Assembly (NCBI GenBank): GCA_944390825.1
Contig: CALXRG010000001.1
Coordinates: 124,001-188,000, forward strand
Length of the DNA stretch: 64,000 nucleotides
Source: an uncultured Akkermansia sp.
Lineage (GTDB): Bacteria; Verrucomicrobiota; Verrucomicrobiia; Verrucomicrobiales; Akkermansiaceae
Reading direction: 5' to 3'
Below are positions 30,582-39,668 of this stretch, piece after piece. Each line of letters begins with the position of its first letter. Position 1 is the stretch's first letter. A program made the position numbers and the translations under genes. The notes under the pieces are model-generated. The model was given only the letters and a program-made list of their open reading frames with translations. It was not told the DNA's origin and searched no databases.

Positions 30582-33239
30582 ATGGCCGACGAGACAAATG
30601 AGTTCTATAAGGAACCTACTCGGAAAGAGTGGGTGGGGTTCTGGACGCTTGTGGCCGTACAGGCTCAAAACGCCTTCAACGAAAAGGCTGTTCAGTTTCT
30701 GCTCATCCCCTTGGGCGTCTGGCTGTGGGGTGCGGCCGACAGCACACTGGAATACATGCTGGGAGCGATTTTCGTGCTGCCCTATATTCTCTTTTCGCCG
30801 CTGGTGGGATGGCTGGCGGATTGCTTCTGCAAGACGCGCATCATCCAGGTGATGAGCATCCTGCAGTTCATCGTCATGGCGTGCATGCTGTTCTGCTTCT
30901 ACCAGCACGACATGCATGCCGCCATCATCTGGTTTGCCGTTTTTGCCACGCAGGCTACGATTCTGAGCCCGGCGAAGAAAGGCATCGTCAAAGATCTGCT
31001 GGGCTCGCGCTACATCGGCTTTGGCTCCGGCATCATCGAAATGAGCATGGTATTCGTTCTGCTGCTGGCGCAAATCGGCGTCTTCTTCTGGTTCAGCTAC
31101 CTGCTGGGAGAATACTCCGAGCTGCCGGATGGCGAACAGGAAGCCGGCTGGAGTTCCGTCATCCTGCCCACCTGGGTCTTTTTAGGCCTGGCAGCCCTCG
31201 TCTCGGCAGCGGCTTTCCTCCTGCCCCGCTACCCCGCGAAAAAGGCCAACCCCTTTCGCTGGAGCCTGTTCTATGAGCACTTTGTCCAGATCAAGTATCT
31301 TTGGAAAGATCGTCTGCTGCGTATCAGTGAGCTGGGTATTTCCTTCTTCTGGTGCCTGGCCGGTTCTCTTTTCCTGATTCTCATTCAAATTGCCAAAGGC
31401 ATGCAGGCGCAGAATCCGGAGGTGGATTTCTCCCTGCAGTGCGGCATTCTCATGGCCTGGCTCACTGGCGGCGTTGTCATCGGTGGTGTCACGGCCTCCC
31501 AGCTGTGCAAAGGCAAAAATGAACTCGGGCTCATTCCCTTCGGTGCCATTGGCATTGCCTTGTGTACCATGATGCTCTCGATCCTGGATGCCACCAGCAC
31601 CATCAGCCACGTAATGCTCGGGCTCACCGGCCTGTTCGGCGCCATGTACCTCGTGCCGCTGAATGCCTACCTGCAGGACAACTGCGACCCCGCCCAGCGC
31701 GGCAACATCATCGCCGCCGGCAATCTGATCGACAACCTGATGGGGCTGGTCGCCGTCGCTCTGATGTGGGTCATGCACGAAATCTTCGGATGCAGCCCGC
31801 AGAACCAGTACTTTGTTCTCTTCCTGATGAGTGTCTTCATCATGGTGACTTCCCTGCGTCTCATCCCGCAGGAATTCATCCGCATGGTGGGTATCTGGTG
31901 CCTGAAGTTCATCTACACACCGCGCGGCATCAACCTGGACCGCATCCCCGAACGGGGCGGAGCCCTGCTGGTGGTCAACCACGTCACCTACGCCGATGCG
32001 CTGTTCCTCATGATGGTCAGCCCGCGCACCGTACGCTTCATCGTGGCGGAGGAATTCATGGGCTACCGTCTGCTCAACTGGATACTGGAAATCTTCAATT
32101 CCCTGCCCATCTCCTCGAAAAACCCGCGTGAAGCCATCATGAATGCCGCCAAAGGCATCCGCGAAGGCGACCTCATCTGCATCTTCCCGGAAGGGCAGCT
32201 CACCCGCACCGGCTGCCTCTCCCCCATTCGCCGAGGCATGGAAATGATTGCCCGCCGCGCCCAGGCTCCCATCATACCGATCTACATGGACGGCCTCTGG
32301 GGCAGCATCTTCTCCTTCCACCGCAACCGCTTCTTCACCAAACTGCCCCGACTGCTTCCGTACCCCTTTACCGTCGCGGTTGGCGAAAAGCAAAACTATG
32401 AGACCTTTGACAGCGCGCAGACCTCACACATCATGCGCAAACTCTCCGCGACCTGTCTGGAATCCGCCGCCTGCGGCAGCAAAGACGACCTCATCAGCAA
32501 GCTGGAAGCCCGCGGCAACACCCCCCTCGTCTTCTTCAAAGGAGGCACTCTGACCGGCATCCAGCTCGCCGCCAGCATCATCAGCAAGCAAGTACCCCAG
32601 GAGCTTCCCCAAGTGGCGCAGAATTGGATTTCCCAACTGATACGCTCCACGGCCGACCTCATGGTCCTCCACCGTCTGCTGATGAACGTCAGCCAGGTAC
32701 GCCGGGTCAACGCCCTCAAGGAAGGCTCGCGCCACCGCCTGCTCACCACCGTGGGGCACGACGAACCCCAGGAGCAAGTTCTGTCCGTACTCTGGCCCCT
32801 GGTGACCAACACCCCGGTACACGTGATCGATACCGCGGAGGAAAAGTTGGAAGCCGACATCTCCCAGATCGTGGGAGGCAGCCACATGCGCCGTCTCCTG
32901 CTCACCGCCATCCCGCGTCGCCAGATTCCCTTCTTCGACTTCAGCAACGGGGCCGACATCGCCACCCCGAACATGCGCTGGCGCCCCTGCTACGCCTGCA
33001 TCAGCGGCATCGTCATCTCCATGAGCATGTGCAAGAGCGTCTTCAAACTCTACGACGGGACCATTCAACTGGGCTCCCGTCCGCGCACCCGCGGTCTGCT
33101 CCTGCCTGGCTTCTACACCGAAGGCAACGCGTCGGACGGCGAAGGCATCACCGTCTGCGGGCCTTCCCTCTACACACCGGTTTCACTGCCTTCCAAGATC
33201 TACCTGGACGAGAGCGGGTTCCTCGCGGAGCTCTCCTGA
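30582..33239 (+). CDS. MFS transporter-PlsC acyltransferase fusion with degenerate C-terminal domain
   Basis: 885 residues. Residues 1-430 are a 12-helix MFS transporter resembling the lysophospholipid flippase LplT. Residues 440-620 are a PlsC-type acyltransferase with catalytic NHVTYAD (His467, Asp472) and FPEGQ (535-539). This pairing suggests import of a lysophospholipid and its re-acylation at the inner membrane. In related three-part proteins an acyl-ACP synthetase follows; here residues 640-885 occupy that place but lack the AMP-binding signature (YTSGTTG-type), so the domain is probably inactive or changed. It is a single gene between tRNA-Val and the PEP-CTERM gene. Confidence 0.85.
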   Translation: MADETNEFYKEPTRKEWVGFWTLVAVQAQNAFNEKAVQFLLIPLGVWLWGAADSTLEYMLGAIFVLPYILFSPLVGWLADCFCKTRIIQVMSILQFIVMACMLFCFYQHDMHAAIIWFAVFATQATILSPAKKGIVKDLLGSRYIGFGSGIIEMSMVFVLLLAQIGVFFWFSYLLGEYSELPDGEQEAGWSSVILPTWVFLGLAALVSAAAFLLPRYPAKKANPFRWSLFYEHFVQIKYLWKDRLLRISELGISFFWCLAGSLFLILIQIAKGMQAQNPEVDFSLQCGILMAWLTGGVVIGGVTASQLCKGKNELGLIPFGAIGIALCTMMLSILDATSTISHVMLGLTGLFGAMYLVPLNAYLQDNCDPAQRGNIIAAGNLIDNLMGLVAVALMWVMHEIFGCSPQNQYFVLFLMSVFIMVTSLRLIPQEFIRMVGIWCLKFIYTPRGINLDRIPERGGALLVVNHVTYADALFLMMVSPRTVRFIVAEEFMGYRLLNWILEIFNSLPISSKNPREAIMNAAKGIREGDLICIFPEGQLTRTGCLSPIRRGMEMIARRAQAPIIPIYMDGLWGSIFSFHRNRFFTKLPRLLPYPFTVAVGEKQNYETFDSAQTSHIMRKLSATCLESAACGSKDDLISKLEARGNTPLVFFKGGTLTGIQLAASIISKQVPQELPQVAQNWISQLIRSTADLMVLHRLLMNVSQVRRVNALKEGSRHRLLTTVGHDEPQEQVLSVLWPLVTNTPVHVIDTAEEKLEADISQIVGGSHMRRLLLTAIPRRQIPFFDFSNGADIATPNMRWRPCYACISGIVISMSMCKSVFKLYDGTIQLGSRPRTRGLLLPGFYTEGNASDGEGITVCGPSLYTPVSLPSKIYLDESGFLAELS

Positions 33240-34787: not shown

Positions 34788-35963
34788 TCAGCAGCTGCCC
34801 AGGGTTTCGGCTGCGGTGCGGATGGCCATGAGGTCGCGGTACCATCGGCGATCGGAGGGCAGCAGGTACCAGGCGGAGGGCTGCATGAGCATGCCGGCGG
34901 TGCTGCGAAGGTGCCGCCAGTTTTCCGGGGTGATGGGGGTGCCTTTTTTGAGGCAGTGCTTGAGGGCGGTTTCTTCTGATGTGTTGAGGAAGAGTCGCAG
35001 GATGCGGATACCCGCTTGCTCCAGTTGCTGCTCGGCTTCGGTGAGCTCGGCGAGGCGGGTTTGCAGCTCGCAGGGGGTGGCGGGGCTGTGCAGGAGGGTG
35101 CTGTAGGGGTTCTCGGCGAGGATGATGACTTGCCCGGGCCGGGGCGCGATGGTAAGGAGACGGGAGGTCAGGGGCGCTCCCTCGGGCTGCGGTGCGGTGG
35201 TGATGATGTGCGTGCGCAGGGGGTCCAGGCAGCGGCCCAGGCGGCGCAGGCAGGGACGCAGCCCGCTTCCGGGCAGGGCCAGGGGGAGGATGAGCAGGCG
35301 CAAGCCCTGCTTCTCGGCGCGGCGCTGGAGGTCGAGGAGTTCCCGGGCGGCGTCGCTGAATTGGTACTCGGCTTCTTCTTTGCCTCCGGCGAAGAGGAAG
35401 CGGTCATCGGCGGCGGTGGCTGGGGGGGTGTTGCCCGGCGGGCTGAGGTAGCGGGTACTGCGGCAGGTGTGCAGCAGGTGCTCCTGTAGGGTACCGGGCA
35501 TGAGGTGCCGGGGGAAGAAGTGCTCCAGTACCTGACGCATGACGGCTTGCTTGAAGGAGACAAACATGCCGGGCTCCAGAGTATACCAGGGTACCCAGCG
35601 GGCGGCGGCGAATTCGCTGCTGCCGGAGAGATCAACCGCGGGTTTGGTGACGGTGCAGCGGAGGACGAAGTAGGTCTGCTCCTGGCCGTCCCATACGCGG
35701 CTTTTGCGGTTTTTGTTGCGGTAGCGGTAGCGTAGGCCACCAAGGCGCGCCAGTATGGTGAGCTGCCGGGCTTGCAGTCCTACTTCTTCGCGCACCTCGC
35801 GCAGGACGGCTTCTGCCATGCTTTCGCCGCGATCGACTCCTCCCTGGGGAAAATGGACGTGGTGGCTTGCTCTGCCGGTGATGCCGAGCAGGACGTTGTC
35901 TTCGGCGTCCAGGATGATGGCGGCGACGTTGGGACGCCAGCTCTCGGCTTCTGAGGTGCTCAC
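34788..35963 (-). CDS. NUDIX hydrolase fused to a degenerate PPK2-like domain
   Basis: 391 residues. Residues 10-150 are a NUDIX domain with a complete box at 41-63 (GGVDRGE, then REVREEVGL), like RNA pyrophosphohydrolase or diadenosine polyphosphatase. Residues 195-391 resemble polyphosphate kinase 2. The end matches well (ILRLFLNTSEETALKHCLKK, then W349 and YLLPSDRRWYRDLMAIRTA, compare the ADRKWYRN-type motif of PPK2). The P-loop place reads LALPGSGLRPCLRRL without the Lys-Gly, and the Walker B place reads AENPYST without the Asp. Kinase activity is therefore doubtful; the domain may bind polyphosphate or nucleotides. The gene follows the lipoate-ligase-like gene. Confidence 0.75.
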   Translation of the reverse strand: MSTSEAESWRPNVAAIILDAEDNVLLGITGRASHHVHFPQGGVDRGESMAEAVLREVREEVGLQARQLTILARLGGLRYRYRNKNRKSRVWDGQEQTYFVLRCTVTKPAVDLSGSSEFAAARWVPWYTLEPGMFVSFKQAVMRQVLEHFFPRHLMPGTLQEHLLHTCRSTRYLSPPGNTPPATAADDRFLFAGGKEEAEYQFSDAARELLDLQRRAEKQGLRLLILPLALPGSGLRPCLRRLGRCLDPLRTHIITTAPQPEGAPLTSRLLTIAPRPGQVIILAENPYSTLLHSPATPCELQTRLAELTEAEQQLEQAGIRILRLFLNTSEETALKHCLKKGTPITPENWRHLRSTAGMLMQPSAWYLLPSDRRWYRDLMAIRTAAETLGSC

Positions 35964-36068: not shown

Positions 36069-36824
36069 TCAGTGGGCGGTGGGCTTGCGGCGTCCGTGGG
36101 TTTCGTCGCTCCACTCGGCGCTGAGGTATTTTTCGCGGCAGAGTTGCTCAAGTTGTGAGGCAAAGCCTGTGTAGGGTTCGGCTGTATCCACGTACTCGAC
36201 GGTGTCGGCCAGTTCCTGCGCAAGTCGGTGTTCCCAGCCGGGGCGGGGGACGCACCCCTGGATGAGCCCCTGATGGAGCACGGCACCTTTGTGCCGCCGC
36301 TGTCCGGCGCCGGCCAATTTGTGTCCGGCGGGGTCGACGATGTCGCTTTCCACGGGGCTGGCCCAGCAGGCCCGGCCTCCGTCCGGGGCGTCGGACTGGA
36401 GAAGTTCGCAGTCTACCCCGCTGGCTTGCAATGCCCGCGCGAGGGCACTATGAATCCAGCGGTAGAGCTCGCAGCTGGGCGGGTACAGGGTTCCGTCGGG
36501 GAGAGCCGGCAGGGTGAGGGTGTAGGTGTAGCCCTGGCGGTGATCGACGATGCCGCCGCCGGTCCAGCGGCGGATGTACTCGACCCCCTCTCCCGGGAAA
36601 AGTGAGGCGGCGACCCGGGCGGTATCAAAGTAGCCAAAGCTGACAGCGGGCCTGGCCCAGCCGTACACGCGCAGCCATGCTTCCGGACGGCGGCTCAGGA
36701 GCTCATCGGCTGCCATGTTGTGATAGCCGTCTCTCAGCACGGGATCGACCCAGAGCCGCAGCTGCGACAGGTGCGGGGGCAGTTCACTGATGGTCCGGGG
36801 GTGTAGCGCGATGATGGTTTGCAT
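36069..36824 (-). CDS. Lipoate-protein ligase / octanoyltransferase-like protein
   Basis: 251 residues of the BPL/LplA/LipB superfamily. RRWTGGGIVDH near 84-94 is the lipoate-binding motif (compare RRxTGGGAVxHD), and GHKLAGAGQRRHKGAVLHQGLI carries the catalytic-Lys region. It attaches lipoate or octanoate to dehydrogenase subunits or to the glycine cleavage H protein, or moves octanoate from ACP. Which of these is unclear. It lies upstream of the NUDIX-PPK2 gene, 105 bp apart. Confidence 0.8.
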   Translation of the reverse strand: MQTIIALHPRTISELPPHLSQLRLWVDPVLRDGYHNMAADELLSRRPEAWLRVYGWARPAVSFGYFDTARVAASLFPGEGVEYIRRWTGGGIVDHRQGYTYTLTLPALPDGTLYPPSCELYRWIHSALARALQASGVDCELLQSDAPDGGRACWASPVESDIVDPAGHKLAGAGQRRHKGAVLHQGLIQGCVPRPGWEHRLAQELADTVEYVDTAEPYTGFASQLEQLCREKYLSAEWSDETHGRRKPTAH

Positions 36825-37016: not shown

Positions 37017-38027
37017 CTAGAGCGGCTGGGGCACGGCCACGCTGCGACTGAAGGAGCGTGTGTACTTCTCGAAGAACTCCGCGGGTTTGGGGGCTCGGCG
37101 GCGACCCAGGCGCACCTGCTCGGCCAGCATGGCACCTTCCTCGGTTACGACGGTGATGGAGACATTGGCCGAGACGATGCGGGCATTGGAGTAGGTGGTT
37201 CCCCCGGCTACGATGCGGTCGCCATAGACTTCGACGCGCTTTTCGTTGCCGCTCTTTGAGGTGGTGATGACGGGGACGGTTTCAGAAGCATAGGCGACGA
37301 GGCCTTTGGCTGCGTCGGCTTTGCTGGCAGCGTACTGGATGTTGAACATCAGGTTCATCTCCAGGACGTTTTCACAGAGGAAGAAGTTCTCGTCTTCCTG
37401 CTCGTAGCGCACGTAGGAGGACCCCAGATCTGTGGAGCCCAGCAGCTGCCGGAAGGTCTCGCGCGGGACAATGACGTGACGGTACAGGGAGAACAGCGGG
37501 TAGGCGCCCTCCGAATCCCGGGCATCGCCCGGTACCTGAAGAATCTGGTCGCGGTACATGAGCCGGTAGCCTACGGCACTGACGTCGCCCTGCGTGTCGA
37601 TGTTCTGGGCACGGGCGTTGCGGTAATTTCTGCGCAGGCTCGGGCTGCTGCTCACCGCGGGGTTGCGGTCAGGAGCACAGACGAAGAAGACGCACTGCAC
37701 GGACTTGGGGATTTTAATGCCTTTCGGGCCGGTGATTTTGTTTTTGTCGGCCTTGGCGAGAAGCCACTGGTATTTGTTGTTGCCAGCGCGCATCTGCATG
37801 GATTCCAAGTCATGGCACATGGTTTCGAGCGCAACGCGGGCGTTGTTGGTCGTGCTGATGTCCTCGCGCACGCCTTTCCACAAATCCATCCCCTGGGTGG
37901 TGATCTGCATGATGCCGTAGACCAGGATCGAGGTGATGGCCATGGCCACCATCAGTTCCACCAGGGTGAAGCCGCGATGTGCGGCGCGGACGAGTTTTGG
38001 GGTGTTAAGCCTGTTTTTCATAGTCAT
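37017..38027 (-). CDS. Verru_Chthon cassette protein C-like pseudopilin (GspJ-like)
   Basis: 336 residues from MTMKNRL; a start seven codons upstream or two codons downstream is also possible. A prepilin signal is clear: RAAHRG, then FTLVELMVAMAITSILVYGI with Glu at +5. After the helix, MCHDLESMQMR and the rest resemble a large GspJ. It is third in the run D (38952), B (38154), C, all on the minus strand. Function in a secretion or pilus apparatus is inferred. Confidence 0.8.
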   Translation of the reverse strand: MTMKNRLNTPKLVRAAHRGFTLVELMVAMAITSILVYGIMQITTQGMDLWKGVREDISTTNNARVALETMCHDLESMQMRAGNNKYQWLLAKADKNKITGPKGIKIPKSVQCVFFVCAPDRNPAVSSSPSLRRNYRNARAQNIDTQGDVSAVGYRLMYRDQILQVPGDARDSEGAYPLFSLYRHVIVPRETFRQLLGSTDLGSSYVRYEQEDENFFLCENVLEMNLMFNIQYAASKADAAKGLVAYASETVPVITTSKSGNEKRVEVYGDRIVAGGTTYSNARIVSANVSITVVTEEGAMLAEQVRLGRRRAPKPAEFFEKYTRSFSRSVAVPQPL

Positions 38028-38153
38028 GTTGGAAAATCCGGGTATCAAGAGCGGCTGCGCCTGGCTGAGATGACTTCAGTGGGGAAAAATCAAAACTTTG
38101 TGTGAAGGGGCGGGAGTGGCGAAAAAGCGGGAGAAGGAAAGAGCAGTCAAAAC

Positions 38154-38906
38154 TCAACGGCGGAAGGAGAGATTGGCGGAGAAGCATGGCTCTCCCAGCT
38201 GCTTCCATGTGCGGTTGCGGTAGCGCGCCGGATTGGCCGGGCGCATCAGATAAAAGTCGGCACGGTAAAACACAGCTCCGCCCCAGGCCTCGCGGTCTTT
38301 TTCGTTGGAGACATATGCGGACGGATCCGAGGCTTCCTGGATGATGCCGGGACTGCCGGCCACCCTGAAGCCGCCGGTCATCGGATCCGGAATAAGCTGG
38401 GTCATGCGCACGATGAAGACCGAGCCAATGGCGTCCCGGATGTCATCCTTGTGCAGGGGGTCATCCATCGGGCAGGCGATGGAGATGAGCTGGCTGTTGT
38501 AGTTGGGCGCGCTTTTGCCCAAAGGCAGCGCCGGATAGGTGCCGTCAGGCCTCGGGGCTTTGCTGGTATCTGCCCGATAGGAGAAAATGACAATGGCGCG
38601 CGAAGGCCGGTTGCTGCGCTGCAGCCACATGAAGGCCTTGTCAAAGGAGCTGACATACTGCCCCACCGACGAGCGAGTCGCTCCGGCGGAGGCGATTTCG
38701 TTCGGTTTCAGGGTGCTCATTTCAGTGCGCAGAATACTGGTGATGCGCTCTGCGTCCTGCTTGCTGAGGGCATTGAGCACGGCCGCCCGGGCCGGCAAAA
38801 ACACCGTGATGAACATGGACACCAGCACACCAACCAATGCAATGGCCAGCAAGGTCTCCATCAGCGTGAAACCTTTCCCAACACTTGAAAAGCGAGACGT
38901 CTTCAT
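38154..38906 (-). CDS. Verru_Chthon cassette protein B-like pseudopilin (GspI-like)
   Basis: 250 residues. It starts MKTSRFSSVGKG, then FTLMETLLAIALVGVLVSMF, a prepilin cleavage site with Glu at +5. The TLLAIALVGV wording and size resemble GspI-type minor pseudopilins. The exported part includes a Tyr/Arg-rich end (AVFYRADFYLMRPANPARY). It is 45 bp downstream of the D gene and 126 bp upstream of C. Confidence 0.8.
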   Translation of the reverse strand: MKTSRFSSVGKGFTLMETLLAIALVGVLVSMFITVFLPARAAVLNALSKQDAERITSILRTEMSTLKPNEIASAGATRSSVGQYVSSFDKAFMWLQRSNRPSRAIVIFSYRADTSKAPRPDGTYPALPLGKSAPNYNSQLISIACPMDDPLHKDDIRDAIGSVFIVRMTQLIPDPMTGGFRVAGSPGIIQEASDPSAYVSNEKDREAWGGAVFYRADFYLMRPANPARYRNRTWKQLGEPCFSANLSFRR

Positions 38907-38951
38907 GAAACAAAGAAAAAATAAAGGAGAATGCAGATACGTAAGGGTTCG

Positions 38952-39668
38952 TCAGTGCTCGATCTGGTCAATCGTGCGCAGCCGCACTGTATTGCCCGAG
39001 GGGTACACCACCAGCCCGCGAGCGCCCACAGGCCGCTTGCGGGAGTCCAAATCAGCAGGCAGCACTCCGTCCTTTGCCCGGCGGCTGCTCTCACTCAAGC
39101 GTCCGGGAATCAGCACCATGCGCTGCGGCAGAGTCGTGCTGTCCGGGCCGGCCTGGGGGTGCATGAAACGCCCCTTCTCATCGAACTCCGCGTACAGGAT
39201 GCGGGTATAGCCCTTGTTGGAAAGGCGAGCAGTATCGTCACCCAGCATCGTATCCAGCGAGTCACCGTCCAGCGGCCGGCTGTAGTGCGGACTGAAGAAA
39301 ATACCCGGCGGCAGCAGCACGCCTGTTGACACCGTCGTCCACCGGCCCTCCGGCGCGACATCCGTTCCATCATAGCTCTTGTCGCTCTTGGACAGCAGCT
39401 GGATGGTCATATAGCGCAGGTGCCGCTCCCTGTCGCGGGGCTCATTGACGACGACCAGGCGGGTGCAAGTCTCATTGCCCATAGCCATCGCGCGGGCTTC
39501 ATGTACCATACTCTCAAGCTGAATCACGGCAGACTCCATACCCCGCCCCTTGCCCGTGTCCCGCAGCACCGAGCCTGCCATCGTCATCATGACACCCAAA
39601 ATAAAAATAACGACCAGGAGCTCGATGAGCGTAAACCCTCTGTGGTGAATCCGGCGGAAAGTTTTCAT
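38952..39668 (-). CDS. Verru_Chthon cassette protein D-like pseudopilin (GspH-like)
   Basis: 238 residues. MKTFRRIHHRG, then FTLIELLVVIFILGVMMTMA is a textbook prepilin N-terminus. VIQLESMVHEARAMAMGNETCTRLVVV matches the conserved part of GspH/FimT minor pilins. It is first of the D-B-C run. It diverges from uppP over 154 bp. The minus-strand promoter is not certain; TTGAAG with TAAGTA 17 bp later is a candidate. Confidence 0.82.
   Translation of the reverse strand: MKTFRRIHHRGFTLIELLVVIFILGVMMTMAGSVLRDTGKGRGMESAVIQLESMVHEARAMAMGNETCTRLVVVNEPRDRERHLRYMTIQLLSKSDKSYDGTDVAPEGRWTTVSTGVLLPPGIFFSPHYSRPLDGDSLDTMLGDDTARLSNKGYTRILYAEFDEKGRFMHPQAGPDSTTLPQRMVLIPGRLSESSRRAKDGVLPADLDSRKRPVGARGLVVYPSGNTVRLRTIDQIEH

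Follow-up and report, generated by a model that had tools for sequence, protein, structure and literature searches.

Class III PPK2s are polyP:AMP phosphotransferases, represented among solved structures by Meiothermus ruber MrPPK2 (5lc9, 5ld1, 5ldb, and 5maq) and the Deinococcus radiodurans enzyme (6aqe). Inactive PPK2 domains as such are already known from a natural protein, PPK2C of Pseudomonas aeruginosa (PA3455, PDB 3czp), in which, according to the review PMC8776046, the fusion partner of the catalytically inactive domain is an active PPK2 domain instead of a NUDIX hydrolase, and the protein retains kinase activity. The closest described counterparts of the other half of the protein considered here are the RNA pyrophosphohydrolases of the RppH type. 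We describe a gene that joins a NUDIX domain to a domain with the same predicted fold as the class III PPK2s, and we conclude from descent, loss of the active site, predicted fold, and purifying selection that the second half is a pseudo-PPK2 whose origin was a bifunctional enzyme. The gene lies in a stretch of 64,000 nucleotides, called the window below, and the features referred to are these:

34788..35963, minus strand: NUDIX/pseudo-PPK2 fusion gene, 391 aa, GTG start.
35511..35939, minus strand: NUDIX (RppH-like) domain, residues 9-151, Pfam PF00293.
35775-35843, minus strand: NUDIX box, residues 41-63, intact, sequence GGVDRGESMAEAVLREVREEVGL.
35391..35510, minus strand: linker, residues 152-191, of low model confidence (pLDDT <50 at 154-191).
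34800..35384, minus strand: PPK2-derived domain, residues 194-388 (Pfam PF03976 above cut-off; AF2 model; VIA-align).
35256..35276, minus strand: degenerate P-loop LPGSGLR, residues 230-236 (MDAGGKD in the intact ortholog P0002).
35097..35117, minus strand: degenerate Walker B AENPYST, residues 283-289 (NRSHYED in intact orthologs).
34833..34853, minus strand: retained C-terminal motif DRRWYRD, residues 371-377, with W, Y, and R invariant in 45/45 fusions.
36069..36824, minus strand: lplA-like neighbour gene, which, by eye, appears to encode a lipoate-protein ligase; synteny marker of the orthologous locus in relatives.

The reading frame of the fusion is open across all 391 aa, with no internal stop. 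Its N-terminal half belongs to the NUDIX superfamily by both family score (Pfam PF00293 at residues 10-141; E 6.7e-18, 65.4 bits against a cut-off of 21.1) and box, the strict pattern GX5EX7REUXEEXGU being present in the window protein and throughout the 45 fusions described below, in agreement with the original prediction of an intact NUDIX box. The nearest solved chains in a phmmer search are RNA pyrophosphohydrolases (RppH, PDB 4s2w and others; E about 1e-16 over residues 6-150), which have the NUDIX box and the VSFK segment (window residues 135-138) in common with the window protein. Among NCBIfam families the RppH models are again nearest, all scoring below cut-off; the window NUDIX half differs from RppH proper in reaching only 82.9 bits against the equivalog cut-off of 139 (NF001937). 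The NUDIX half is a predicted pyrophosphohydrolase of the RppH/Ap4A-hydrolase type. A genome search found the fusion protein as the sole PPK2 match of the window genome, together with PPK1 and four further NUDIX matches besides the fusion; apart from the fusion, the genome encodes a NUDIX frame of 174 aa that looks similar.

The resemblance of the C-terminal half to PPK2, originally proposed by eye, was borne out by Pfam PF03976 at residues 195-386 (E 1.9e-8, 34.6 bits against a cut-off of 22.3). The same half is matched over residues 194-380 by the solved PPK2 6aqe (phmmer, E 6.8e-7) and lies near the NCBIfam families poly_P_AMP_trns and PPK2_rel_1, under both cut-offs; a profile of 18 degenerate domains compared with one of 8 active PPK2s gives a probability of 99.9 and E 4.1e-31, so that the resemblance is not due to chance. 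The full-length AlphaFold2 model has a mean pLDDT of 82.3 and a pTM of only 0.56, and hence no confident prediction of the domain arrangement, whereas the C-domain modelled alone has a pLDDT of 82.4 and a pTM of 0.80. PPK2 structures head the Foldseek list for this model (6aqe, E 3.9e-11, TM 0.75 by query), and VIA-align places it much closer to 6aqe (Z 24.5, rmsd 2.4 over 208 residues) than to thymidylate kinases (Z about 15.5); the alignments supplied to AlphaFold2 included active PPK2s and bias it towards the PPK2 fold, so that the model is not independent of homology. The structure prediction proposed at the outset as a check thus returned a PPK2 fold, and the C-domain is predicted to carry the P-loop kinase fold of this family.

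What sets the window protein apart from class III PPK2s is the N-terminal NUDIX domain and the loss of the Walker A Asp and Lys, the Walker B motif, the class III Glu, and most lid residues. One of its intact orthologs, by comparison, matches MrPPK2 with E 3.6e-93 and conserves both MDAGGKD and NRSHYED. Aligned to intact orthologs, the window protein has P231 in the Walker A Asp column and L235 in the Walker A Lys column, just as a P-loop stripped of its kinase residues had been predicted; H336 and K340 occupy the lid Arg columns of a shortened lid without an R-X2-3-R motif; and S288 takes the place of the class III Glu (ChPPK2 E137 column), which is E in 17/17 intact orthologs. The claim that the Walker B Asp is replaced was half right: the motif is indeed lost, residues 283-285 reading AEN instead of [ND]RS, but this position is occupied by Asn, not Asp, both in 17/17 intact orthologs and in 5lc9, the closest solved class III enzyme.

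With the window protein we searched 142 genomes of the window's order, its own genome included, of which 76 belong to the window's genus, probably Akkermansia, and found in these 76 a total of 45 alignable NUDIX-PPK2 fusions, again counting our own, plus one fragment (in G055) that was excluded from the trees; L051 (G029), which is cut by a contig end, was retained. Seventeen of the fusions have an intact class III PPK2 site (GKDG and NRSHYED) and 28 are degenerate. With 15 standalone PPK2s of this family from outside the genus, about 61-68% identical, as the root of the tree, the 28 degenerate fusions form one long-branched clade (support 100/100) nested within paraphyletic intact ones, and L016 (G050), which has an intermediate PPK2 score of 115.6 bits, is the first branch. 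Long-branch attraction may contribute to this monophyly, as treekit warned, but the NUDIX half gives an independent tree in which a single branch (98/96) likewise parts the intact from the degenerate group. The lplA-like and pilin-like neighbours adjoin the gene in the degenerate loci, with the exception of L051 where the contig ends at the gene, and among intact loci in L035 and L054 but not in the other 15; these shared neighbours indicate that degenerate and intact fusions are orthologs. The intact fusion P0002 (G073) has the same architecture as the window protein and shares its NUDIX box and the core residues that were retained, but possesses in addition all catalytic PPK2 residues, and is predicted to be bifunctional. 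The pilin-like neighbours in the window are a run of three proteins with prepilin-type N-termini (by eye; 37017-39668, minus strand) beside the lplA-like gene, an arrangement found conserved in most of the genus.

Matches spanning both NUDIX and PPK2 outside the genus were absent among the matches listed for 384 genomes of the class and among those listed for 387 genomes of the phylum (a set overlapping the first) at E up to 1e-60. Because only standalone PPK2s were listed outside the genus, and because the degenerate clade is nested in the intact fusions, the fusion most likely arose within the genus as an intact enzyme and lost its kinase site once. Viral contigs yielded no relative of the intact P0002 or of P0001, and one relative when searched with a PPK2 alignment. 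PPK2 homologs were seen on sixteen distinct IMG/VR contigs (L128, L133, L135, L136, and L139-L150; L137 and L128 being one contig), and these genes may be either phage-borne or host DNA labelled viral.

No fusion was seen in 30/76 genomes of the genus, so that the gene is dispensable. The lplA-like neighbour could be located in 28 of these 30 genomes, and in none of the 28 does a fusion lie within 1.1-1.5 kb of it. Two weak matches considered as possible remnants were judged to be chance: one (L106, E 0.005) falls inside the lplA-like gene itself, and the other (L109, E 0.003) is 22% identical over about 70 residues. An additional standalone PPK2 accompanies the fusion in 14/17 genomes with intact fusions, and no other PPK2 was seen in the 28 genomes with degenerate fusions or in the 30 without a fusion, so that no PPK2 chemistry would be left in the degenerate genomes; PPK1 is found in 72/76 genomes of the genus, and polyP is therefore probably made. 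Judged by gene content, the degenerate clade thus appears to have lost PPK2 chemistry while polyP synthesis stayed. In G073 the intact fusion and the standalone PPK2 lie about 10 kb apart on opposite strands (G073:C1, 556346-556993 and 566271-566972), a pair that recurs in several genomes.

How far the PPK2 domain has eroded was gauged from 120 columns conserved in at least 30/32 active enzymes and scored in the 28 degenerate proteins. The catalytic columns are largely gone: the Walker A Asp is kept in 1/28 and the Walker A Lys in 0/28, the Walker B Asn in 3/28 and Arg in 10/28, and the two lid Arg in 11/28 and, for R361, 2/28. Mean identity kept falls from Gly/Pro (0.45) through aromatic (0.28), aliphatic (0.26), polar (0.23), and acidic (0.19) to basic residues (0.17), a ranking that looks as though the fold was kept and the polyP channel was not. 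The small kept core comprises Y172, K195, D247-P248, P274, E311, L326, P369, and W374-Y375-R376, of which K195, P248, P274, L326, P369, and the WYR triplet, together with R240, are present in 28/28 degenerate proteins. Domain length varies from 176 to 231 residues in the degenerate proteins, whereas every intact domain has 230, and median net charge is +1 for intact and -1 for degenerate domains, with the window protein at +3.

Selection on the C-domain was estimated by the NG86 method, which is rough at dS >1. Omega is 0.009-0.056 for intact domains (15/15 tested pairs) and 0.010-0.168 for degenerate ones, the latter in 14 unsaturated of 48 tested pairs, the other 34 (including the single pair in which the window protein took part) having been dropped as saturated. 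The degenerate values are not uniform: a nine-member subclade (L021-L025, L029, L030, L032, and L033) gives 0.010-0.122 in 8 unsaturated of 36 pairs, with 7/8 at 0.010-0.034, whereas pairs outside it give 0.123-0.168 (6 unsaturated of 12), the domain there evolving at several times the rate seen in intact enzymes. In 7/8 pairs of the subclade, constraint on the C-domain, which is shortened to 176 residues, with Cys- and Arg-rich stretches and a mean column identity of 91%, is stricter than on the NUDIX half of the same proteins; such low omega implies that a kinase-dead domain was retained for some purpose. Between the window protein and L051, its closest relative, the first, second, and third codon positions differ by 0.44, 0.37, and 0.71, the pattern expected under constraint. 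Assembly error or a pseudogene was rejected in view of the 45 open frames, of losses that are diverse but consistent, and of the low omega.

The history of the gene runs as follows. The ancestor in the genus was a NUDIX domain fused to a class III PPK2 with an intact site, in which the NUDIX part may have made AMP or ADP and the PPK2 part would have recharged this product from polyphosphate. The kinase site then disappeared in one lineage, where purifying selection continued to act on the C-terminal fold and on a small core, and many relatives have no copy of the gene. PPK2s form dimers and tetramers, and for this reason the present pseudo-PPK2 could be a scaffold on which the oligomeric state or stability of the NUDIX part, or the access of substrate to it, depends; within the nine-member subclade its role seems to have become fixed and more stringent. 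A NUDIX pyrophosphohydrolase with a non-catalytic PPK2-derived scaffold is the reading we favour, with moderate confidence; counting against it, the gene is dispensable, and the fast evolution of the C-domain outside the nine-member subclade also fits slow decay.

Slow decay is itself an unlikely account for the gene as a whole. It would have the C-domain erode after other PPK2 functions went, with truncation held off because it would destabilise the protein and the gene on its way out, and the empty sites beside the old neighbour in 28/30 fusion-less genomes, the variable domain lengths, and the long branches of the degenerate clade all point in this direction. It sits poorly with omega well below 1 in 14/14 unsaturated pairs, with a subclade held as strictly as active enzymes in 7/8 pairs and more strictly than its own NUDIX half, with invariant core residues, and with aligned fusions that are open frames free of stops. 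A domain that still binds polyP, a polyanion, or RNA 5′-phosphates, and thereby alters NUDIX activity with no turnover of its own, is possible if rather unlikely. According to PMC4748334 and PMC8776046, the polyP pocket of FtPPK2 includes K228, K229, and R232 in a C-terminal block to which ChPPK2 K258 and R262 also belong, and this block overlaps the retained [KR]WYR; the Ft K228/Ch K258 column is basic in 23/28 degenerate proteins, R376 is invariant in 45/45 fusions, R240 is Arg in 28/28, and the wide occurrence of PPK1 would supply the ligand. Against such binding, of 28 columns whose basic residue is conserved in 30 or more of 32 active enzymes, 2 stay identical in at least 25/28 degenerate proteins and the other 26 do not, the Walker A Lys, Walker B Arg, and R361 are among the losses, the Ft R232/Ch R262 column is N or D, and the median charge has turned negative, though not in the window protein. 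The original suggestion of polyphosphate or nucleotide sensing is accordingly left unsupported, basic residues being the class least retained. We had also equated R376 with FtPPK2 R232/ChPPK2 R262, an assignment dropped when the PDB sequences gave D377, one residue on, as the gapless equivalent.

The fullest form of this idea, in which the kinase-dead PPK2 would be an allosteric polyP or polyanion receptor that switches an RNA-decapping or Ap4A-cleaving NUDIX enzyme and so couples turnover to the phosphate store, with the nine-member subclade as its most refined form, we regard as quite improbable. That the C-domain still transfers phosphoryl groups through a non-canonical active site is hardly credible: glycines and nearby basic residues are kept in several degenerate P-loops, and the predicted fold is kept, but both Walker A residues, Asp and Lys, disappeared along with Walker B and the lid residues, and what replaced them varies between subclades.

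The design had been put forward as undescribed, and we found no description of a NUDIX-PPK2 fusion in the open-licence PMC literature, though a database annotation or subscription paper may well exist. As far as open PMC text shows, the intact form, in which a polyP:AMP kinase is paired with a nucleotide pyrophosphohydrolase, is also unreported, and from this pairing one would predict that polyphosphate drives the recharging of NUDIX products. A single locus, in what is probably a gut-bacterial genus studied for human health, offers a natural series from bifunctional NUDIX-PPK2 through kinase-dead fusion to gene absence, and makes it testable what holds a pseudoenzyme domain under selection once catalysis is gone.

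Two other composite frames were seen in the same genome. In the window, 30582-33239 on the plus strand is an 885-aa frame with the look, by eye, of an MFS transporter followed by a PlsC-type acyltransferase. Elsewhere, L153 (G000:C10) is a second NUDIX fusion, a 484-aa open frame from position 481 that combines a KsgA-like rRNA methyltransferase with a NUDIX/isopentenyl-diphosphate-isomerase-like domain; both names were given by eye, the Pfam NUDIX match being the part that was computed.
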